A stretch of 64,000 nt of DNA from Acidimicrobiia bacterium (GTDB lineage Bacteria > Actinomycetota > Acidimicrobiia > IMCC26256 > PALSA-610). Position 1 is the stretch's first letter. The number at the start of each line of letters is the position of its first letter. The stretch spans positions 191,001 to 255,000 of the forward strand of contig JAOSJK010000012.1 in the NCBI GenBank assembly GCA_027494135.1. Direction: 5' to 3'. The notes under the pieces are model-generated. The model searched no databases and had not been told where the DNA came from. It worked only from the letters and a program-made list of their open reading frames with translations. A program made the translations under genes and the position numbers. Of the stretch, positions 4,676 to 14,359 are shown in pieces.

Positions 4676-5858
4676 TCACGCCGGTGTCGGCTCCGGCAGG
4701 ATGCCTCCGCGTTCGCGCAGGTCGGCCGCCCCTCGCAGGTAGAAGAAGCCCGCACAGGAGAGGATCGCGCCGGTGGCGAACGCCCCCCTGTAGCCGGTCA
4801 TCGCGGCGACGGCGCCGCACAGCATCGCGCCGAGCCCCTGCGACAAGTCGAAGAACGACGAGAAGGTCCCCACCACAGAGGCCCTCTCCGAGTCGTCGAC
4901 CCCGTCGAGGGCGAGGAGCAGCAGCGCCGGGTACATCAACGACATCCCCGCCGCGTACAGGACCGTGCCGACCACCAGGCCCGCGACCGTGCCCCTACGC
5001 GGCCATGGCCGCTGTTCCCAGAGCGCCGAGTGCGAGCGCGGCGCTCCCGGCCCGGCGCGACCCGAGCGTGTCGGGCAGGCGCGCCCCGAATATGCGCACC
5101 GCGAGCACGAGCACGCCGTACAACATGAAGATCCCCCCGGAGCCCGACAGGCCGAGGTCGTCTACGTATAGGGGAACGAACGCCCAGTAGCCCGCGAGCC
5201 CGACGAGGCCCAGGAAGAGCACCAGGCCCGGACCGAGAGCGGCCCGGTGCAGCAGGTGCGTCGAGGTTCCGGCGTGAGCCCTCGGTCGTTCCACCTCCCG
5301 CGTCAACATCCCGAGGCCCGCGGCGAGCAGTGCGAGCAGCGCCGCGGCCGCCCAAGCGTGCCCGTAGCGATCCTCGCCGAGGACGGCCTCACCGAGCACC
5401 GGGCCGAACGCAAGGCCCCCGTAGACGGCCACCGACCAATACGACACTGCCTCGCCGCGCCTCTCCGGTGGAGCCATGTCGGTGATCATGGTCGCCGCGC
5501 CGACGAAGAAGGCGGCCTCGCCGATTCCCGCTATGAACCGTATCCCCGCCAGCCAGGCAAGCGATTCGACGAGCCCGAACAGCGCGGTCATCACAGCCAC
5601 GACGAGCGCCCCACCGACGACGAGCACGCGTCTCCCGATCCGGTCGCCGATGCGGCCTGCGTACGGGCGCAACAGGACCGCCCCTACCGCGAACGTCCCC
5701 ACCCCCACGCCGACGGCGACGCTGCCACCGCCCAGTGGCCCCTCCACGTAGCGCGGGATCACAGGAGAGAGCATCGTGAGCGCGAGGAAGTAGGCGAGTC
5801 CGGCCGCCACCACCAGGACGAACTGGCCCGTTATCAGGCGTCCGCCGGGGCGGCTCAC
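4676..5858 (-). CDS. MFS transporter (frame break)
   Basis: A 12-helix major facilitator superfamily permease, about 393 aa. The first helix is VLVVAAGLAYFLALTMLSPVIPRYV. The motif-A loop YAGRIGDRIGRRVLV lies between helices 2 and 3, and MITDMAPPERRGEAVSYWS matches the helix 4-5 loop. The C-terminal third is in another frame after about 4997-5003 (RRGTVAGLVVGTVLYAAGMSLMYPALLLL). The start overlaps the stop of the enoyl-CoA hydratase gene by 4 bases. A proton-coupled drug or metabolite exporter is the usual role; the substrate is unknown. Confidence 0.88.
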
Positions 5859-6529
5859 ACGTCGAGGCGGCCGTCGACCACGGTGGCCGCGCGCCGGTTC
5901 GCCTTCGCCTTGGTCCGCATCAGCACCTCACGTGGCGCTTCTGCGATCATCGACGCGTACCGGCGCGCCTCCTCCATCAGCCGGGCGGGTGGCACCACGG
6001 CCGACACGAGATGGAGTCGCAGTGCCTCGTCGGCCTCGACGGCGCGTCCGGTCAGTGCGAGATCCTTCGCCACTGCCGAGCCGACGAGGTCGAGGAGCGG
6101 CGTGTACACGACGTCGGAGAACGTGTGCTCCGGGTGGGCGAAGCGAGTCCCTTCGGCAGCTATGCGCAGGTCGCACATGACCGCAAGGTCGAAGCCGCCG
6201 GCGAGCGCCGGACCGTTCAGGGCGGCGATGGTGGGGAGCGGGAACTCGAGCCACGCCTTGTGCCACTGCTCGCTCGCCCCCCAGAACGTGTCGGCGTCGA
6301 TCTCCCCGGCAGCGACGGCCTCGAACTCCTTCAGGTCGTAGCCGGCGGAGAAGACCGCACCGTCGCCGGTGACGATCACGACCTTGACCGCGTCGTCGGC
6401 GGCGAGCGCCCCGAGCACACCGACGATCTCGTCCCTCATCGACATCGAGAGCGCATTGCGCTTCTCGACCCGGGAGAGCGTGATCGTCGCAATCCCGCCC
6501 GAGGGCCCAATCACCTCCACGTCCGCCAT
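5855..6529 (-). CDS. Enoyl-CoA hydratase/isomerase family protein
   Basis: A crotonase-fold enzyme of 224 aa starting MADVEVIGPSGGIATITLS. It has the CoA-binding and oxyanion-hole segments FSAGYDLKEF (residues about 60-70) and ALNGPALAGGFDLAVMCD (about 100). The catalytic positions downstream read HTFSDV and do not match the two glutamates of a classical hydratase, so the reaction may be an isomerisation or something else. The ORF track start at 6619 is rejected because the upstream 30 residues are Arg/Gly-rich and unrelated to the family. The stop overlaps the start of the MFS gene. Confidence 0.92.
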   Translation of the reverse strand: MADVEVIGPSGGIATITLSRVEKRNALSMSMRDEIVGVLGALAADDAVKVVIVTGDGAVFSAGYDLKEFEAVAAGEIDADTFWGASEQWHKAWLEFPLPTIAALNGPALAGGFDLAVMCDLRIAAEGTRFAHPEHTFSDVVYTPLLDLVGSAVAKDLALTGRAVEADEALRLHLVSAVVPPARLMEEARRYASMIAEAPREVLMRTKAKANRRAATVVDGRLDV

Positions 6530-6583
6530 CACCGCTCCTCGTCTCGCCCTCCGGGGCACCATGACCCCGAGATCCGAACGCGA

Positions 6584-6610
6584 GGCGGCCCGGGCAGTGC
6601 CCGGGCCGCC
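6584..6610. terminator. GC-rich hairpin downstream of the Liv-type operon
   Basis: A perfect 12-bp inverted repeat (GGCGGCCCGGGC / GCCCGGGCCGCC) with a 3-base loop lies in the 231-base gap between the end of the MFS-ABC fusion gene and the start of the enoyl-CoA hydratase gene. No T-run follows on either strand, so it would be an actinobacterial-style hairpin terminator, if it terminates at all. Nothing else was recognised in this gap. Confidence 0.55.
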
Positions 6611-6760
6611 CCACAGCACAACCGGCGGGGGATCCGGTCGGCTCGACTGCCGGTCTGGCGGGGGTCCTGACCTGGCAGCCGGATCTGTTGACGTGGCGCC
6701 ATGATATCCGTCTGGGTGCGCCCGGCTCGACGGGAGTATCTGCGCTCGCCGTCGGCGATG

Positions 6761-9760
6761 TCAAGGTGGGCCGGCGGGAACCTCCCGCTCTCCCCAACCC
6801 CTGCCGAGGTACGACTCCACGACGGCGGGGTGGGCCAGGACATCAGCGGGCGTACCGACGGCGATCACCTCGCCGGCGTCGAGAGCGACCAATCGATCGG
6901 CGAGCCCCGACAGCAGCGTCATGTCGTGCTCGATGACGAGGAGGCTGCAGTCGAGCTCCGCCTGCACCGAGCGGAGCAGCGGACCGAGCGCCTCGGTCTC
7001 ACGCTGCGCGATTCCCGACGACGGCTCGTCCAGCATCAGCACGAACGGGCGCGACGCGAGCTGGACTCCTACGTCGACGACCCGGCGAGTTCCGGTCGAG
7101 AGCTCGCCTACGAACTTGTCCCTGTAGTCGCCGAGCCCGAGCAGATCGATCAGCTCGTCGACGCGTGCCGCGATGTCGGCCTCCGAGTCGCTCACCACCG
7201 GTAGTCTGAAGAACGCCGGGAGCGCCGCACGCACCGCCACCTCCGGTTCACACCCGGTCGCGATCGCCTCTGCAACGGTGAGGGACGGCCAGAGGATCGC
7301 GCTCTGGAACGAACGACCGAGCCCGCGTCGGGCTCTCGCGTGCGGTGCAAGCCCGGTGACATCCTCGCCGTCGAGGAGAACCTGGCCGGCGTTGAGGTCC
7401 TGGAAGCCGGACACGAGGTCGAGGATCGTCGTCTTGCCCGCTCCGTTCGGTCCGATGAGGCCTAGGATCTCGCCCTCGTGCAACGAGAACGAGACGTCGG
7501 CGACGGCCGCCAGGCCCCCGTAACGCTTGGTGATCTCACAGACCTCGAGAACCACTGGCTTCGCCTCGAGCACAGAGGCGCGCTCCCGTTGCGCCTCCGG
7601 GCTCCTCGCCTCGGTCGAGCCACCCGGCGCCCCGGACCCCGCCGACGCCGCCGACGCCGCACCGTGCAGGAACACCGACCGCACGAGGTCTCTGCGCTCC
7701 AGCAGCTCCGCCGTCGCACCGCTGAACCGGATCTCTCCCTTCTCCATGAAGACGGCCCTCTCCGCGAGCCGCAACGACGTGGACACCGACTGCTCGACGA
7801 GGATTATCGCTGTGCCCGCGGCGTGGATCGCGGGCACGATCTGGACGAGCTGCTCCACGACGGTCGGCGCCAGTCCGAGTGAGAGCTCGTCGATCATGAG
7901 CAGCTTCGGCCGCGCTATGAAGGCCTGGGCGAGACTGAGCATCTGCTGCTCGCCACCCGAGAGGTTGCCCCCTCCACCTCCCAGCGATCGCGCAGCACCG
8001 GGAAGTACCCGATCACGTCCTCGGTAGCCTGCTCCAGATACACCGGGTCGTCTCGGTACATCCAGCCGGCTATGCGCAGATGCTCGGCGACCGTCAGGGA
8101 GGGAATATCCCGCGGTCACCCGGGACCATCGTCAGTCCGAGGCTCGCCGTGAGCGTCGCGTCGGCGCCCGAAATCTCGCGGCCGTCGAAGATGATGCTCC
8201 CCGCTTGCGAGCGCACAAGCCCGGAGATGGCCTTGAGAAGAGTCGACTTCCCGGCGCCGTTCGTCCCGAGAATCGCGACTATCTCACCGTCGGCGATGTC
8301 GAAGTCGACACCGAAGAGCACCTGGGTACCCGCATAACCGACGTCGAGACCTCGGACGGCGAGTATCTGCGAGTCTCCCTCGAGCCGGCGTCGCCGGATC
8401 TCGGCCTGGGTGCGCGACGAGAGGTTGTTCCGCTCGATATCGGCATTGATGTACCTTCCCGCCGACGCCAGGAGAAAGGAACCGAGCAGGTAGACGGGGA
8501 TGAAGATCAGGATTCCGACGCGCAGGCCGTAGCGATCTCCGATCGACCCGACGATGGGAAGGACGGGGGAGTCCGAGCAGGATCCAGAGGGAGCCGGTCG
8601 CGAAGCCGAGCGTCCGCATGCGCGGAGGGACGGCGAGCGAGATGACTGCGAAGACGCCGGGCAGGAGCATGCCCCCGACCACGGCGTTCCCGATCTGTCC
8701 CGCGATCGCGAAGCCGAGCGCTGGAGAGAGAGCTATCAGGGCGAGGAACCCGCTCGACGCAACGGCAGTCCAGCCGAGCATCAGCATGGCCCGTCCGGGA
8801 TCCCGCACGATCAAGCGCTGCATGATCACGGCCCCGACCAGGAGGCCGATCACCTGCGCAGGCTCCACCGCCGCGAAGATGACGCCCCTACCCCGCGAAC
8901 CGACGTTGTAGACGTCGTCGTAGAAGAGGCTGAGCAGGGTCTGGATGCCTATCGCGGAGGCGGCCAGGAATGGCAAGGAGAAGTAGATGCGTCGCGCGCT
9001 CTCGCTCGCATAGAGCGTCCGGAACGTCTCGGAGAAGGTCGCGGGTACCTCCTCGGTGACGGCTGTCTCCTCGTCGGCTCCGGCGGCGCGCCGCTCGTGC
9101 ACGCCGCGGATCGGCTCCTGCAGCATCAGGGCGAGCACGACGAAGACCAGGCTCGGCACCGCGAAGATGAAGAACGGCGTCTCCCACCCGTATGAGGCGG
9201 CGATGAGGCCCGCCCCGAGCGGCCCGATGAACTGGCCGACCGTGTTCGCGAGTCGGTGCGCGTAGAAGACGCTCGCTCGGCTCTCCTGCGGGTAGTAGTC
9301 GGCGAGGAGGCTGTTGTGCGTAGCGTTGAAGGTCTTGCCGAGTGCCGAGCCACCGCGCGACGTACATCAGCGCCAGGCTCGACACGAGTCCGGCCACACC
9401 GGTGAGCATCGTGAACAGGGCCCAGATGCCTGCGCCCAGACCCGCCATGCGGGTCCGGTTCCTACGGTCGGCCCAGTACGCGATGGGGAGCTCGAGGAGC
9501 AGACCGACCGGGATGATCGCAGCGGCGAGCGTGGTCACACCGGTGACGCCGAGTCCGAAGTGATCCTTGATCTCCGGTGTGAGCACTGCGAACGCGGCCC
9601 GGTCCAGCTCGTCGACCGCGTTCAAGCCGAAGAGAACCGCCAACGGGAAGATCGGGGCCGCTCCCACGACCCTGCGGAGGCTCAGCCGCTCTCGCCAGGG
9701 CTTCTTCACTCCCATTGCGGCATCGGGTCCCACCACGGCGTCGTCGTCCGGGGTCGTCAT
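6761..9760 (-). CDS. MFS permease fused to LivF-type and LivG-type ATPases (frame breaks)
   Basis: A roughly 1000-aa fusion. Residues about 1-440 are an MFS permease (motif A as YWADRRNRTRM, twelve predicted helices, the last being VGILIFIPVYLLGSFLLAS). Residues about 465-690 are a LivF-type ABC ATPase (Walker A GTNGAGKST, signature LSGGEQQM, Walker B LLMIDELSLGLAP). Residues about 735-995 are a LivG-type ATPase (Walker A GPNGAGKTT, atypical signature LSTGTRR, Walker B FVLMLDEPSSG, H-loop IEHDM). Frame breaks occur near 9350, 8565-8569, 8100 and 7975. The linker from the last MFS helix into the LivF domain is open in one frame and holds no ATG, GTG or TTG, so the ATPase cannot start separately there. 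The LivF-LivG junction is in one unbroken ORF. The start overlaps the LivHM stop by 4 bases. Confidence 0.88.
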
Positions 9761-11853
9761 GCGCTCTCCGCCACGTCCGAGACGAACGCACCCGCGGTGA
9801 GCGCCGTCTCTCCTCCTTCACGACGCGCGTCGGTGACCATCGACGGCACGAAGATGCCGCGTCGTCGCGCGACGGAGCGGAGGAAACGATCACGCACTGC
9901 GTACGCGGCTCCACCCAGCCCTTCGGGGAGCAGGAGGAGCAGCGCGAGGATCCCCGCACCGCTCGCCACCAGGTCCCACCCGTTCGGCAGGAAGAACTCG
10001 GCGCCTCGTATGTAGACGGCTCCGAGGACCGCTCCCGACATCGAGCCGAGGCCGCCCAGGACGATCATCGAGAAGATCAGCATGCTGATGTCGGGGGAGA
10101 ACGCGTCGGTGTGCAGACCCTTCTGGTGGATCACGTACACGCCGCCTGCCAGCCCGGCGATGGACCCGGAGATGGCGAACGCCGTGAGCTGGGCGCGACG
10201 TGTATCGAGTGTCACGGCCTCTGCCGCGAGCGAATTGTCACGAGCAGCGATCAGCACCCTGCCCGTACGACTCGACCGCAGCCCGCGCACACCGAGGATG
10301 ACGATAATGAGAACCGCGAGGGCGAAGTAGTAGACGTTGACGTCCGTCTCGATGGCGATGCGCCCCAGCAGTCGGGGTCGCTCGATCCGCTCCTCGATGA
10401 ACCAGGGGAGATGCCGCTCGCGGAGGAAGTAGGTGTACGACGTCACCGCGAAGGCGAGGGTGGTGACCGCCACGAACGGTCCGCGGATCCGCAGCGCGGG
10501 GATGCCGAGCAGGACGCAGACCGCGCCGCCGACCACGGCGCCTGCGACCAATGCCGGCACCGCATCGATGCCGTGACGCCCGTACAGCACTGCTGTCGTG
10601 GCGCCCCCGAATCCCACAACCGCCCAGTGGCCCAACGAGATGTGACCCGCCCATCCCGTGAGGATCCAGAGCGAGATCGCCACGACCGAGTAGATGAGGA
10701 GCAGCGAGGCCGCACCGACCTGGCTCGGGCTCGCGACCAGCGGAACGCTCATCGCGGCGGCGATGACGACGACCTTGACCGCCACGGAGGCCCACATGAC
10801 CTCCGGGATCCGCCGGAGCTCCGCCGGGACCGGTCGGATCTCACGCAGCGACTTCCAGCTCGAGATCCCGGTCTCGCGGATCCTGGAGAACGCGTCGCGC
10901 TGGACCAGAAGCGCCACGACTATGAGCACTACGAGCATCTGGTCGACCAACGTCGTGTTCGAGTAGTTCCAGATCGCCGCCTCCTGGATGACCCCGAGTG
11001 CCACGGCCGCGACCGCGATCCGTGGCAGGCGCTCCATCCGGCCCATGACGCCGGCGGCGAGGGTGAACAAGAGCAGGGAAGGTCCACTACCCGAGACGCT
11101 GGAGAACGAGCCGAACCCGACGATCGGGACCCGCAGGAGCACAGCGAGCGCCGACAGGAACCCCGCGATCATCCAGACCATCGCGGAGACGCGCGCGGTG
11201 GGCACACCCAGTAGGCCGGCTCTGTCGACGTTGTCGGCAGACGCCCGAATGGCCGTGCCGTAGTCGGTGAATCGCAGGAACACCGCCAACGCGACGAGCA
11301 CCACCGGCACCACGACGATGGCGACGAGGTGGTTCGAGTCGAAGATCACGGGGAAGATCGTGAGCTTGGCGCCGAAGGGCACCGCGAACCGTTCGTCACG
11401 TCCGCCCTCTACGAGCAGTGGGACGACCAGTGACGCACCGGCGAGAACCTGCGCGAGCGCGATCGTCACCACCGCGACGGTGAGGCGGGGCGCCTCCCGG
11501 AACCGCCGAACGACCAGTACCTCCATCGCGAGCCCCATCGCCGCACAGACGACGAGGCCACCGCCGACGGCCAGAAAGAACGGGAACGACCAGTGCAGGA
11601 ACGCCATGATCCCCAGTACCGCTCCCAGGCTGCCGAGCTCGCCCTGCGCGAAGTTGACGACACGGCTCGCGCGGTACACGAGGGCCAGGCCCATCGCATT
11701 GAGCGCGTAGAGGGATCCGAAGACGGTGCCGAGCAGGAGGATGCCCGGCGGGAGGCCGCGCGGGAGGCGCGCGTCGAGCACCAACCAGAGCGCGTAGACG
11801 AGCAGCGTCCCGCCGACCACGCGCACGATCCTGTTGTCGAGAACCTCCCTCAT
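9757..11853 (-). CDS. LivH-LivM fused ABC permease
   Basis: An intact 698-aa membrane protein joining both permeases of a branched-chain-amino-acid-type (HAAT) importer. The N-terminal half (about 1-300) is LivH-like: GSLYALNAMGLALVYRASRV followed by NFAQGELGSLGA, and GLLGVPTARVSAMVWMIAG. The C-terminal half (about 350-650) is LivM-like: GWAGHISLGHWAVVGFGGA, RIRGPFVAVTTLAFA, ALTLDT-type coupling region AEAVTLDTRRAQLTAFAISG, and VLGGLGSMSGAVLGA. It lies 34 bases after the binding-protein gene and overlaps the MFS-ABC fusion gene, which supplies the matching ATPases. Substrates of this class include amino acids, amides and urea; which one applies here is not visible. Confidence 0.93.
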   Translation of the reverse strand: MREVLDNRIVRVVGGTLLVYALWLVLDARLPRGLPPGILLLGTVFGSLYALNAMGLALVYRASRVVNFAQGELGSLGAVLGIMAFLHWSFPFFLAVGGGLVVCAAMGLAMEVLVVRRFREAPRLTVAVVTIALAQVLAGASLVVPLLVEGGRDERFAVPFGAKLTIFPVIFDSNHLVAIVVVPVVLVALAVFLRFTDYGTAIRASADNVDRAGLLGVPTARVSAMVWMIAGFLSALAVLLRVPIVGFGSFSSVSGSGPSLLLFTLAAGVMGRMERLPRIAVAAVALGVIQEAAIWNYSNTTLVDQMLVVLIVVALLVQRDAFSRIRETGISSWKSLREIRPVPAELRRIPEVMWASVAVKVVVIAAAMSVPLVASPSQVGAASLLLIYSVVAISLWILTGWAGHISLGHWAVVGFGGATTAVLYGRHGIDAVPALVAGAVVGGAVCVLLGIPALRIRGPFVAVTTLAFAVTSYTYFLRERHLPWFIEERIERPRLLGRIAIETDVNVYYFALAVLIIVILGVRGLRSSRTGRVLIAARDNSLAAEAVTLDTRRAQLTAFAISGSIAGLAGGVYVIHQKGLHTDAFSPDISMLIFSMIVLGGLGSMSGAVLGAVYIRGAEFFLPNGWDLVASGAGILALLLLLPEGLGGAAYAVRDRFLRSVARRRGIFVPSMVTDARREGGETALTAGAFVSDVAESA

Positions 11854-11886: not shown

Positions 11887-13588
11887 TCAGCGGTCCGGGT
11901 ACACGGCCGGGGGCTCGTCCGGCCAGTTGCCTCGCAGGTAGCGCCGTCCTCCGTCGGTCGCCACCCAACGCCCCCTCAGGGACCGGTCGGCCTCCGCGGG
12001 GAGGGTTCCGAATCCGCGTCCCAGTACACCTCTCGCGCGTCCTCGCGGCCCGTGTGATCGCCATGCCAGCTCCAGACGCCGAGAACGTCGTCGCCTCGCA
12101 CGGGCAGTGATTGCGCTCCGGCCGCGACGTTCTCGGGCGTCAGGTCGGGTCCGGCCGCCTGAAGGAAGTTGAAGAGAGTGATGACAGAGTTGAGCGAGCC
12201 GGTGGTCCCGCCGCGGATCGTCTCGCCCGTGAGCTTCTCGTAGAGCCGCCCGGCCTCGCCATCGGGACCCATCAGGAGCTCGTCCTGAGGAAGCTGACTG
12301 ACTCCGAAGATGTGCCCGTCGACCGACTCCTGGTCGTAGCTCCTGCCGAAGTTGTCGGTATCGACGGCCGCGGAGCCGATGATGATCCACTCGGGGCTGT
12401 ACTCCTGCTCGCGGGCCGCGGCGGTCAGGAACTGCACCGAGAAGGGATCGGCTGCGAGGATGATCGTTGTCACTCCGTCGGCCTTGAACTGCAGAATCGC
12501 CCGCTGCGCCTGCTCGGCGAACCTGGAGATGTCGAGCGCGTAGGTGATCCGCTGGCTCCTCTCGGTGACCCCGTAGTCCTTCTCTAGGATCTCGATCGTG
12601 CGGTCGTTGCACGAGAGGTACGTCTCGATGTCGGGGATGTACGTGCCGAACTTGCGCGTCTTGCCCTGTTGGCTGCCACCCGCGAATTCGGCGCTGTCAT
12701 CGGCGAGGGTGAGGCGCTTGCCGAGGTACTCGGCCACATGGTCGGCGATCACCGTGCAGCTCATCGTGAGGTGCCACGCGTAGGGATGCTGCTCCTGGTA
12801 CCAGTCCTCCGACGCGTACGCGCCGGCGGCGAAGGTCATGAGGCCGCGCTCGCTCGCGCACTCGGTGAAGACCTGGCTGGTCTCGCTGATCACGGCGAAC
12901 GCGTCGAGCTCCTCGACGATCTTCGTCGCGCCCTGGCAGGCACCCTCTCGCCCCTGGCCGAGTGCCTCAGTGGTGCTGTTCCCGAACTCCGACTCGTACT
13001 CGATCAGCTCGACCTTGCGGCCGTAGAGCTCGTAGTTGTCGTTGAAATACTCGTTGAAGAGCTTCTGGATCTCGTATGCCTCGTCGGCCGTGGCCAGGCC
13101 GGCCTTGCGGAGCCCTCGTCGACGGCCTCGGAGTTTGCCGAGGCCGGGAACGTGCGGCGCACGATCCGGATCGTGTCCGCGCTGACTCCGCGGTACGTCT
13201 CGCCGCCGTTGTCACCGGTGAACTCCGGTACGCAAGGCGCCGCGTAGATCGTGTCTGGGATCTGTGCGACGCCCGGTTCGCACTCGATACCGCCACGCGT
13301 CGTCCCCGTCCCCGCGGCGATGCCACCCGACGCGGGTGCCCACTCACCCTCGGGCGGAGCGGTCGTTGCGACGGTTGCGGTCGTGTCCGTCGCTCCACCG
13401 TCGTCATCATCGTCGCCGCCGCCCAAGCTCGGGACGACGGCCAGCGCTACGACTATGAGCAGCGCGATTGCGTAGAAGGGGCCGTAGCGCTTGAGGTGAC
13501 TGCTCGAGCCGGCGCGCTCTCTGGCGTCGCCTCCCCGACGGTTCCGTGCCTGCTCGGTCACGTCCGCCCCTTTCTCGGGACTCGTCAT
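11887..13588 (-). CDS. Membrane-anchored periplasmic-binding-protein component of the Liv-type importer (frame breaks)
   Basis: A solute-binding protein of the branched-chain-amino-acid receptor class, about 567 aa after joining. A single N-terminal segment, YGPFYAIALLIVVALAVVPSL, with no lipobox suggests a signal anchor. It is followed by an Asp/Gly/Thr-rich linker. The binding lobes then run through KVELIEYESEFGNSTTEA, SETSQVFTECASERGLMTF, ITYALDISRFAEQAQRAILQ and GVTTIILAADPFSVQFLTAA, ending GNWPDEPPAVYPDR. Frame breaks lie near 13113-13116 and 12003-12006. A GTG at 13561 is an alternative start. It is the first gene of the three-gene operon and is divergent from the FMN-binding protein gene. 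Confidence 0.85.
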
Positions 13589-13668
13589 GGCTCTGGTTGG
13601 CGGGGACGCTACAGCGCGCGTGCCCCGCCCGTACAGATGCTCCGGCAACAGCGCCACGGCGGGCGAGA

Positions 13669-14359
13669 ATGGCGGGTTCCACGAAAGGGACGGAGACCGC
13701 CTTGACCGCATACGAGCCGACAGCGCGCAGCAGGCTGCGACGCCGCCCCGACAGGGCGCACCACGATCGGGAGACCGTTCACGCGATCATCGACGAGTCG
13801 CTCGTCGCACACGTAGGTTTCGCCGGACCGGACGGTCAGCCGTACGTGATCCCCACCAACCACGCCCGCGAGGGCGACACCCTCTACTTCCACGGCGCTC
13901 ACGGGAGCCGGCTGCTGCGCGCCCTCCAGATCGGCGACCCGGTCTGCGTCACCTTCACCCTCGTCGACGGTCTGGTGCTCGCGCGGTCGTGGACGAATCA
14001 CTCCGTCAACTACAGATCGGCTGTCGTGTTCGGTAGGGGGCGCAAGGTCACCGACCCCGACGAGCGGTGGACGGCGCTGCGGGGCCTCGTCGAGCAGGTC
14101 GCTCCGGGCCGCTCCGAGGATGCCAAGCCGTCGACGGCACAGGATCGGCGCGGCACCGGCCTCGCCGCGGTGGAGATCGAGGAGGCGTCGGCGAAGATCC
14201 GCTCCGCCGGGCCCCACGACGACGAGGACGACCTCTCCCTCCCCCGTATGGGCGGGCGTCCTGCCCACGGCGATCACGTTCGGCACCCCCGAACACGAGC
14301 CCGACCTCTCCCCGACACCCCTTCCCCCCTACCTGCACGCCAGGGTGGAGCGTCGATAG
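13669..14359 (+). CDS. FMN-binding split-barrel (pyridoxamine-phosphate-oxidase-like) protein (frame break)
   Basis: A flavin-reductase-like split-barrel protein, about 230 aa. RDHAHHDRETVHAIIDESLVAHVGF-type spacing, then YVIPTNHAREGDTLYFHG and SRLLRALQ are the beta-barrel strands that bind FMN in the Pyridox_ox_2 group. The C-terminus reads AGVLPTAITFGTPEHEPDL after a frame break in a five-C run at 14241-14245; four C would join the frames. It starts ATG at 13669 and ends in VERR inside a perfect inverted repeat shared with the convergent gene. A role in F420- or FMN-dependent reduction, or in handling small toxic molecules, is possible; the substrate is unknown. Confidence 0.85.

Follow-up and report, generated by a model that had tools for sequence, protein, structure and literature searches.

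On the minus strand of the window, by which we mean the whole 64,000-nt stretch of DNA that was analysed, a gene at 6761..9760 encodes an MFS carrier domain followed by two ABC-type ATPases. Read from 9760 down to 6761, this gene contains four frame shifts (around 9392-9360, 8570-8566, 8124-8100 and 7981-7951), and a read-through of these breaks gives a product of ~1000 residues. The pieces match Pfam MFS_1 (105.7 bits) and two ABC_tran domains, and both the break count and the domain order agree with what the first-pass annotation had described; the assignment of the whole as one gene also draws on its identity to homologues, as discussed later. The MFS domain, with 12 transmembrane helices, occupies approximately 8450..9690 on the same strand, as delimited by the Pfam match, by an AlphaFold2 model of the homologue L063, and by fold matches in the PDB. 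A helical joint at 8367..8460 (minus strand) connects its last helix, TM12, to a LivF-type ATPase domain at approximately 7660..8366 (minus strand), which in turn is followed by a LivG-type ATPase domain at approximately 6800..7560 (minus strand) that ends in a BCA_ABC_TP_C tail (PF12399). The first ATPase is best matched by curated models that are UrtE/LivF-like and the second by models that are LivG/UrtD-like, and the Walker A, signature, and Walker B motifs are present in both. The LivF domain of a homologue matches the structure 1ji0 at 45% identity. The LivG signature reads LSTG(S/T)RR, with L, S, T, and G invariant in 64 relatives.

The last MFS helix, the linker, and the beginning of LivF lie in a single open frame, in which the first ATG, GTG, or TTG is a GTG at 8321, already within LivF. 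The LivF-LivG junction is likewise a single open frame, though GTG codons occur in it at 7573 and 7555. Both junctions are thus as the first-pass annotation had reported, with its start-free segment extending up to the GTG inside LivF. The absence of start codons was rejected as proof of a fusion, and counts as weak evidence by itself, because the stretch from MFS to LivF that corresponds to it in the 64 relatives holds 1 to 8 start-type codons. The assembly is prone to frame breaks, since split or interrupted MFS matches are found elsewhere in the same genome and the adjoining LivK gene is also broken.

Upstream of the fusion gene, a fused LivH-LivM permease gene (9757..11853, minus strand, ORF limits) carries two BPD_transp_2 permease domains (185 bits), and the end of this gene, with its stop codon, shares 4 nt (9757-9760) with the start of the fusion gene. 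It is preceded by a gene for a putative LivK-type substrate-binding protein (approximately 11887..13711, minus strand), which is broken in the assembly; its piece scores 29.6 bits with Peripla_BP_6, against a cut-off of 31.7, while the relative in L061 scores 36.6, above the cut-off. The ABC importer encoded here looks complete without the MFS domain, at least as judged from its predicted domains, and we therefore argue that the MFS domain is an addition and not a replacement for the permease. Directly downstream of the fusion gene lies an enoyl-CoA hydratase/isomerase gene (5855-6619), which is not recurrent beside the fusions of relatives, and then the gene of a second MFS carrier (4676-5858), likewise broken in the assembly.

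The fusion gene in related actinobacteria

The first-pass annotation had regarded the three domains as one polypeptide, a claim that either a stop and start between the MFS and ATPase parts or homologues always encoded as separate genes would contradict. The comparative evidence is decisive here and goes against both: relatives are not generally split in this way, and they encode MFS, LivF, and LivG in the same order in one unbroken frame of ~1000 residues. Frames that are unbroken across the MFS-LivF junction occur in ~30 of 61 related genomes, at 41-49% identity, and at 16 retrieved loci one frame covers ~960 to 1000 residues of the read-through product, at 48-53% identity. The nearest homologue found, in a genome of the same phylum and another class (L169, genome G094), is also unbroken and is 57% identical over 959 residues.

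A scan of public sequences with the MFS domain alone, keeping one genome per species, returned 171 loci, the best 80 of which were examined. In 68 of these 80, the isolates IMCC26256 and Ilumatobacter nonamiensis among them, the three domains lie in one frame. For another 11, which come from short contigs or sit at the end of a contig, either LivG or LivF was missing from the frame, and one (L136) has a separate LivG gene. The best 80 include the isolate IMCC26256, which has a complete genome, Ilumatobacter nonamiensis, and Microthrix; nearly all carry the label Acidimicrobiia or the broader one of actinobacteria, and a few titles look misassigned. Within the class, a close MFS match is present in 57 of 290 good genomes, and a looser threshold gives a match in 19 of 397 genomes of the phylum; in both sets most open frames have the length expected of the fusion, which itself was checked in part of them.

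It could be argued from the four frame breaks in the window that separate genes were joined here through errors of sequencing, assembly, or annotation. This explanation is ruled out by unbroken homologues, one of them in the complete genome of an isolate (L063, CP011489.1) and others in dozens of independent assemblies, and we give it practically no weight. Predicted frames from this many genomes establish MFS-LivF-LivG as a genuine, conserved gene in a class of actinobacteria.

The surroundings of the gene are also conserved. LivHM adjoins the fusion gene in relatives wherever the contig allows, and the 4-nt overlap of the fusion start with the LivHM stop recurs at 16 of 20 loci, and at 51 of 64 with a long open upstream frame. 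The usual gene order in relatives is LivH-LivM as one gene, MFS-LivF-LivG, and LivK. LivK comes first in the window and likewise in L041 and L042, and the window LivK is 41% identical to the LivK beside the fusion in these two loci. In a tree of the MFS domains, L041, L042, and L169 group with the window. A second clade (L049-L058, L176, and L182-L184) has a different plan, in which one gene encodes MFS-LivF and is followed by a LivH-LivM-LivG chain. Because the two plans differ in how LivG is attached yet both retain MFS-LivF, the constant element of these predicted operons is the MFS domain joined to the N terminus of LivF. In one locus, L041, a single open frame of 1729 residues (genome G048, L041:4371-9557) contains LivH, LivM, MFS, LivF, and LivG, with a low-complexity linker between LivM and MFS. 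We treat this five-domain frame with caution, as it is a single case and a sequence error is possible.

The MFS domain and its joint to LivF

The distance from TM12 to LivF is 54 residues both in the window and in L063, and the alignment across this joint is free of gaps in all 64 relatives; in the wider family it ranges from 46 to 55 residues. By contrast, the linker between LivF and LivG can be as short as 19 or as long as 97 residues. In AlphaFold2 models built from the homologue L063 with 64 sequences, the joint is predicted to be helical: the full model has a helix at 426-451 that follows TM12 and runs through the joint, and a model of the MFS part alone has one helix at 385-432 across it (pLDDT 90.6). 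The constancy of this joint beside a freely varying LivF-LivG linker suggests that the geometry between MFS and LivF matters. An amphipathic character of the linker was considered and rejected, as shuffled sequences have hydrophobic moments at least as high.

The MFS part scores above the Pfam MFS_1 cut-off and retains the MFS fold and motif A. Among solved proteins, the bacterial Spinster carrier HnSpns is the nearest to it in sequence (E 2e-24, in the N half), and the closest folds to its model are DgoT, HnSpns, and human Spns1, with TM-scores of ~0.7. Residue roles have been described for HnSpns, comprising Asp41, Arg42, Arg122, Asp87, Arg91, and Asp142, along with Glu129 as the main proton switch (PMC9440201). 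The equivalents of D41, R122, D87, R91, and D142 are invariant in 64 sequences and those of R42 and W102 nearly so, such that the Spinster feature set of the Asp-Arg pair in TM1, the Arg in TM4, the Asp-Arg pair of motif A, and the Asp in TM4 is either invariant or found in at least 59 of the 64. The Glu129 position in TM4, however, is occupied by K in 48 sequences, R in 9, G in 2, A in 2, Q in 1, and E in only 2. Lys or Arg, with Lys in the window, thus replaces the switch in 57 of 64, which casts doubt on a proton coupling like that of Spinster carriers. Asp60, which forms a conserved periplasmic salt bridge, is not kept either, with L, N, T, F, I, or K at its place in the main clade. As Glu129 and Asp60 are both absent, we class the domain as Spinster-like and not as a member of the Spinster family.

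A stand-alone relative of the domain is found at L170:6647-9700. It is 48% identical to the fused domain and ends just past TM12, and no Liv genes were found within the 15 kb retrieved around it, indicating that this MFS can exist without the ATPases. L170, too, carries Lys in place of Glu129, so the change from Glu to Lys did not need the fusion. In a quick tree L170 falls among the fused members, and gain and loss of the fusion are therefore indistinguishable.

These observations bear on whether LivF and LivG might directly power the rocker-switch of the MFS domain, turning it into a primary active carrier. An unbroken helix that leads from TM12 into LivF and does not vary in length, the intact ATPases, and the loss of the Spinster proton switch would all fit such an ATP-driven MFS. 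We nevertheless consider it unlikely, given that the complete LivHM encoded next to it should occupy the coupling sites of the ATPases and that the stand-alone relative has the same Lys.

The main rival to a carrier with its own translocation path is an MFS-derived scaffold or regulator that carries nothing, and that would either anchor and assemble the ABC complex or act as a ligand-sensing gate on the ATPases. The rigid joint would suit assembly or sensing, and the Glu129 switch is missing in most members. Moreover, in L041 and L042 the MFS domain has lost several switch residues, including the Spinster-type D87 and R122 equivalents, and is still fused; that this lineage retains the fusion despite the loss of key residues speaks for a scaffold role. 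On the other hand, all 64 main-clade sequences retain the MFS cycle's charge network without change, and the mean column entropy of the MFS domain (1.14) is nearly equal to that of LivG (1.09), which indicates a constraint comparable to that on LivG and beyond what a passive anchor needs. On balance, we regard a scaffold or sensor as a possible but rather less probable explanation.

A putative importer with an attached carrier

No transporter superfamilies are larger than those of the MFS and ABC transporters, which have opposite energy mechanisms. In the predicted products, the MFS domain sits on the N terminus of LivF and LivG on its C terminus, and these are encoded with a fused LivHM and a LivK. 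Our preferred reading, held with middling confidence, is that they form a complete Liv-type (HAAT) ABC importer with one rigidly attached MFS carrier that most likely provides a second translocation path. Such a complex would hold one of each module and hence one MFS domain. LivK would deliver the solute to LivHM, LivF and LivG would hydrolyse ATP, and the carrier would be held next to LivHM by the rigid helix that runs from TM12 into LivF. The MFS domain would then most likely translocate a related substrate, co-substrate, or product, and its conformational cycle may be tied to, or paced by, the movement of LivF. A stronger form, in which two paths share one ATPase pair and ATP hydrolysis drives or gates the MFS beside LivHM through this helix, we put forward only tentatively. 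The first-pass annotation had suggested a hybrid transporter, an MFS-derived scaffold, or a second translocation path. The hybrid or second-path suggestion is compatible with the MFS switch residues, the intact ATPases, and the rigid joint, but unproven, and it stands alongside the scaffold.

Several known systems come close to the proposed complex. The branched-chain amino acid importer LivKHMGF, a HAAT-type importer, has the same LivHM pair, LivF and LivG ATPases, and operon, and its LivK has a probable counterpart here; in the fusion, by contrast, LivF and LivG form one chain with a whole MFS domain at its N terminus, and LivH and LivM are fused. The Spinster carriers (HnSpns, 6e8j/6e9c; human Spns1; SPNS2) share with the MFS domain the fold, the TM1 Asp-Arg, the TM4 Arg, and the motif A network, whereas the fused domain has Glu129 replaced, does not keep Asp60, and has ATPases attached. 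The D-galactonate:proton symporter DgoT (6e9n) ranks first among PDB folds matched to the MFS model and gives a near full-length sequence match (E 2e-13), but the identity is ~20% and DgoT is a stand-alone proton symporter. The full model has some of its best fold matches in DppABCD and OppABCD of M. tuberculosis, importers in which a single chain likewise carries both of the ABC ATPases that drive transport, although without an MFS domain. ArsB, a carrier that works alone or with the ArsA ATPase, offers a functional analogy from unrelated families and with separate chains.

We found no description of the MFS-LivF-LivG fusion or its parts in the open-licence literature, although one may exist elsewhere, and the system is apparently an undescribed type of importer, a form of the HAAT-type ABC importer, in a widespread and little-studied actinobacterial class. 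A conserved single chain of MFS and ATPase domains offers a natural test case for the driving or gating of an MFS carrier by an ATPase.

As to the substrate, no substrate-specific gene recurs among the neighbours of the relatives' operons, where LivK alone recurs broadly; a uracil-DNA glycosylase-like gene, an AMP-binding enzyme, and others are all sporadic and were set aside as substrate clues. Comparison of the LivK proteins with solved structures gave no match below E = 0.1 and hence no clue to the substrate. Two LivK-type binding proteins are encoded in tandem after the fusion gene in L060, L061, L088, and L135.
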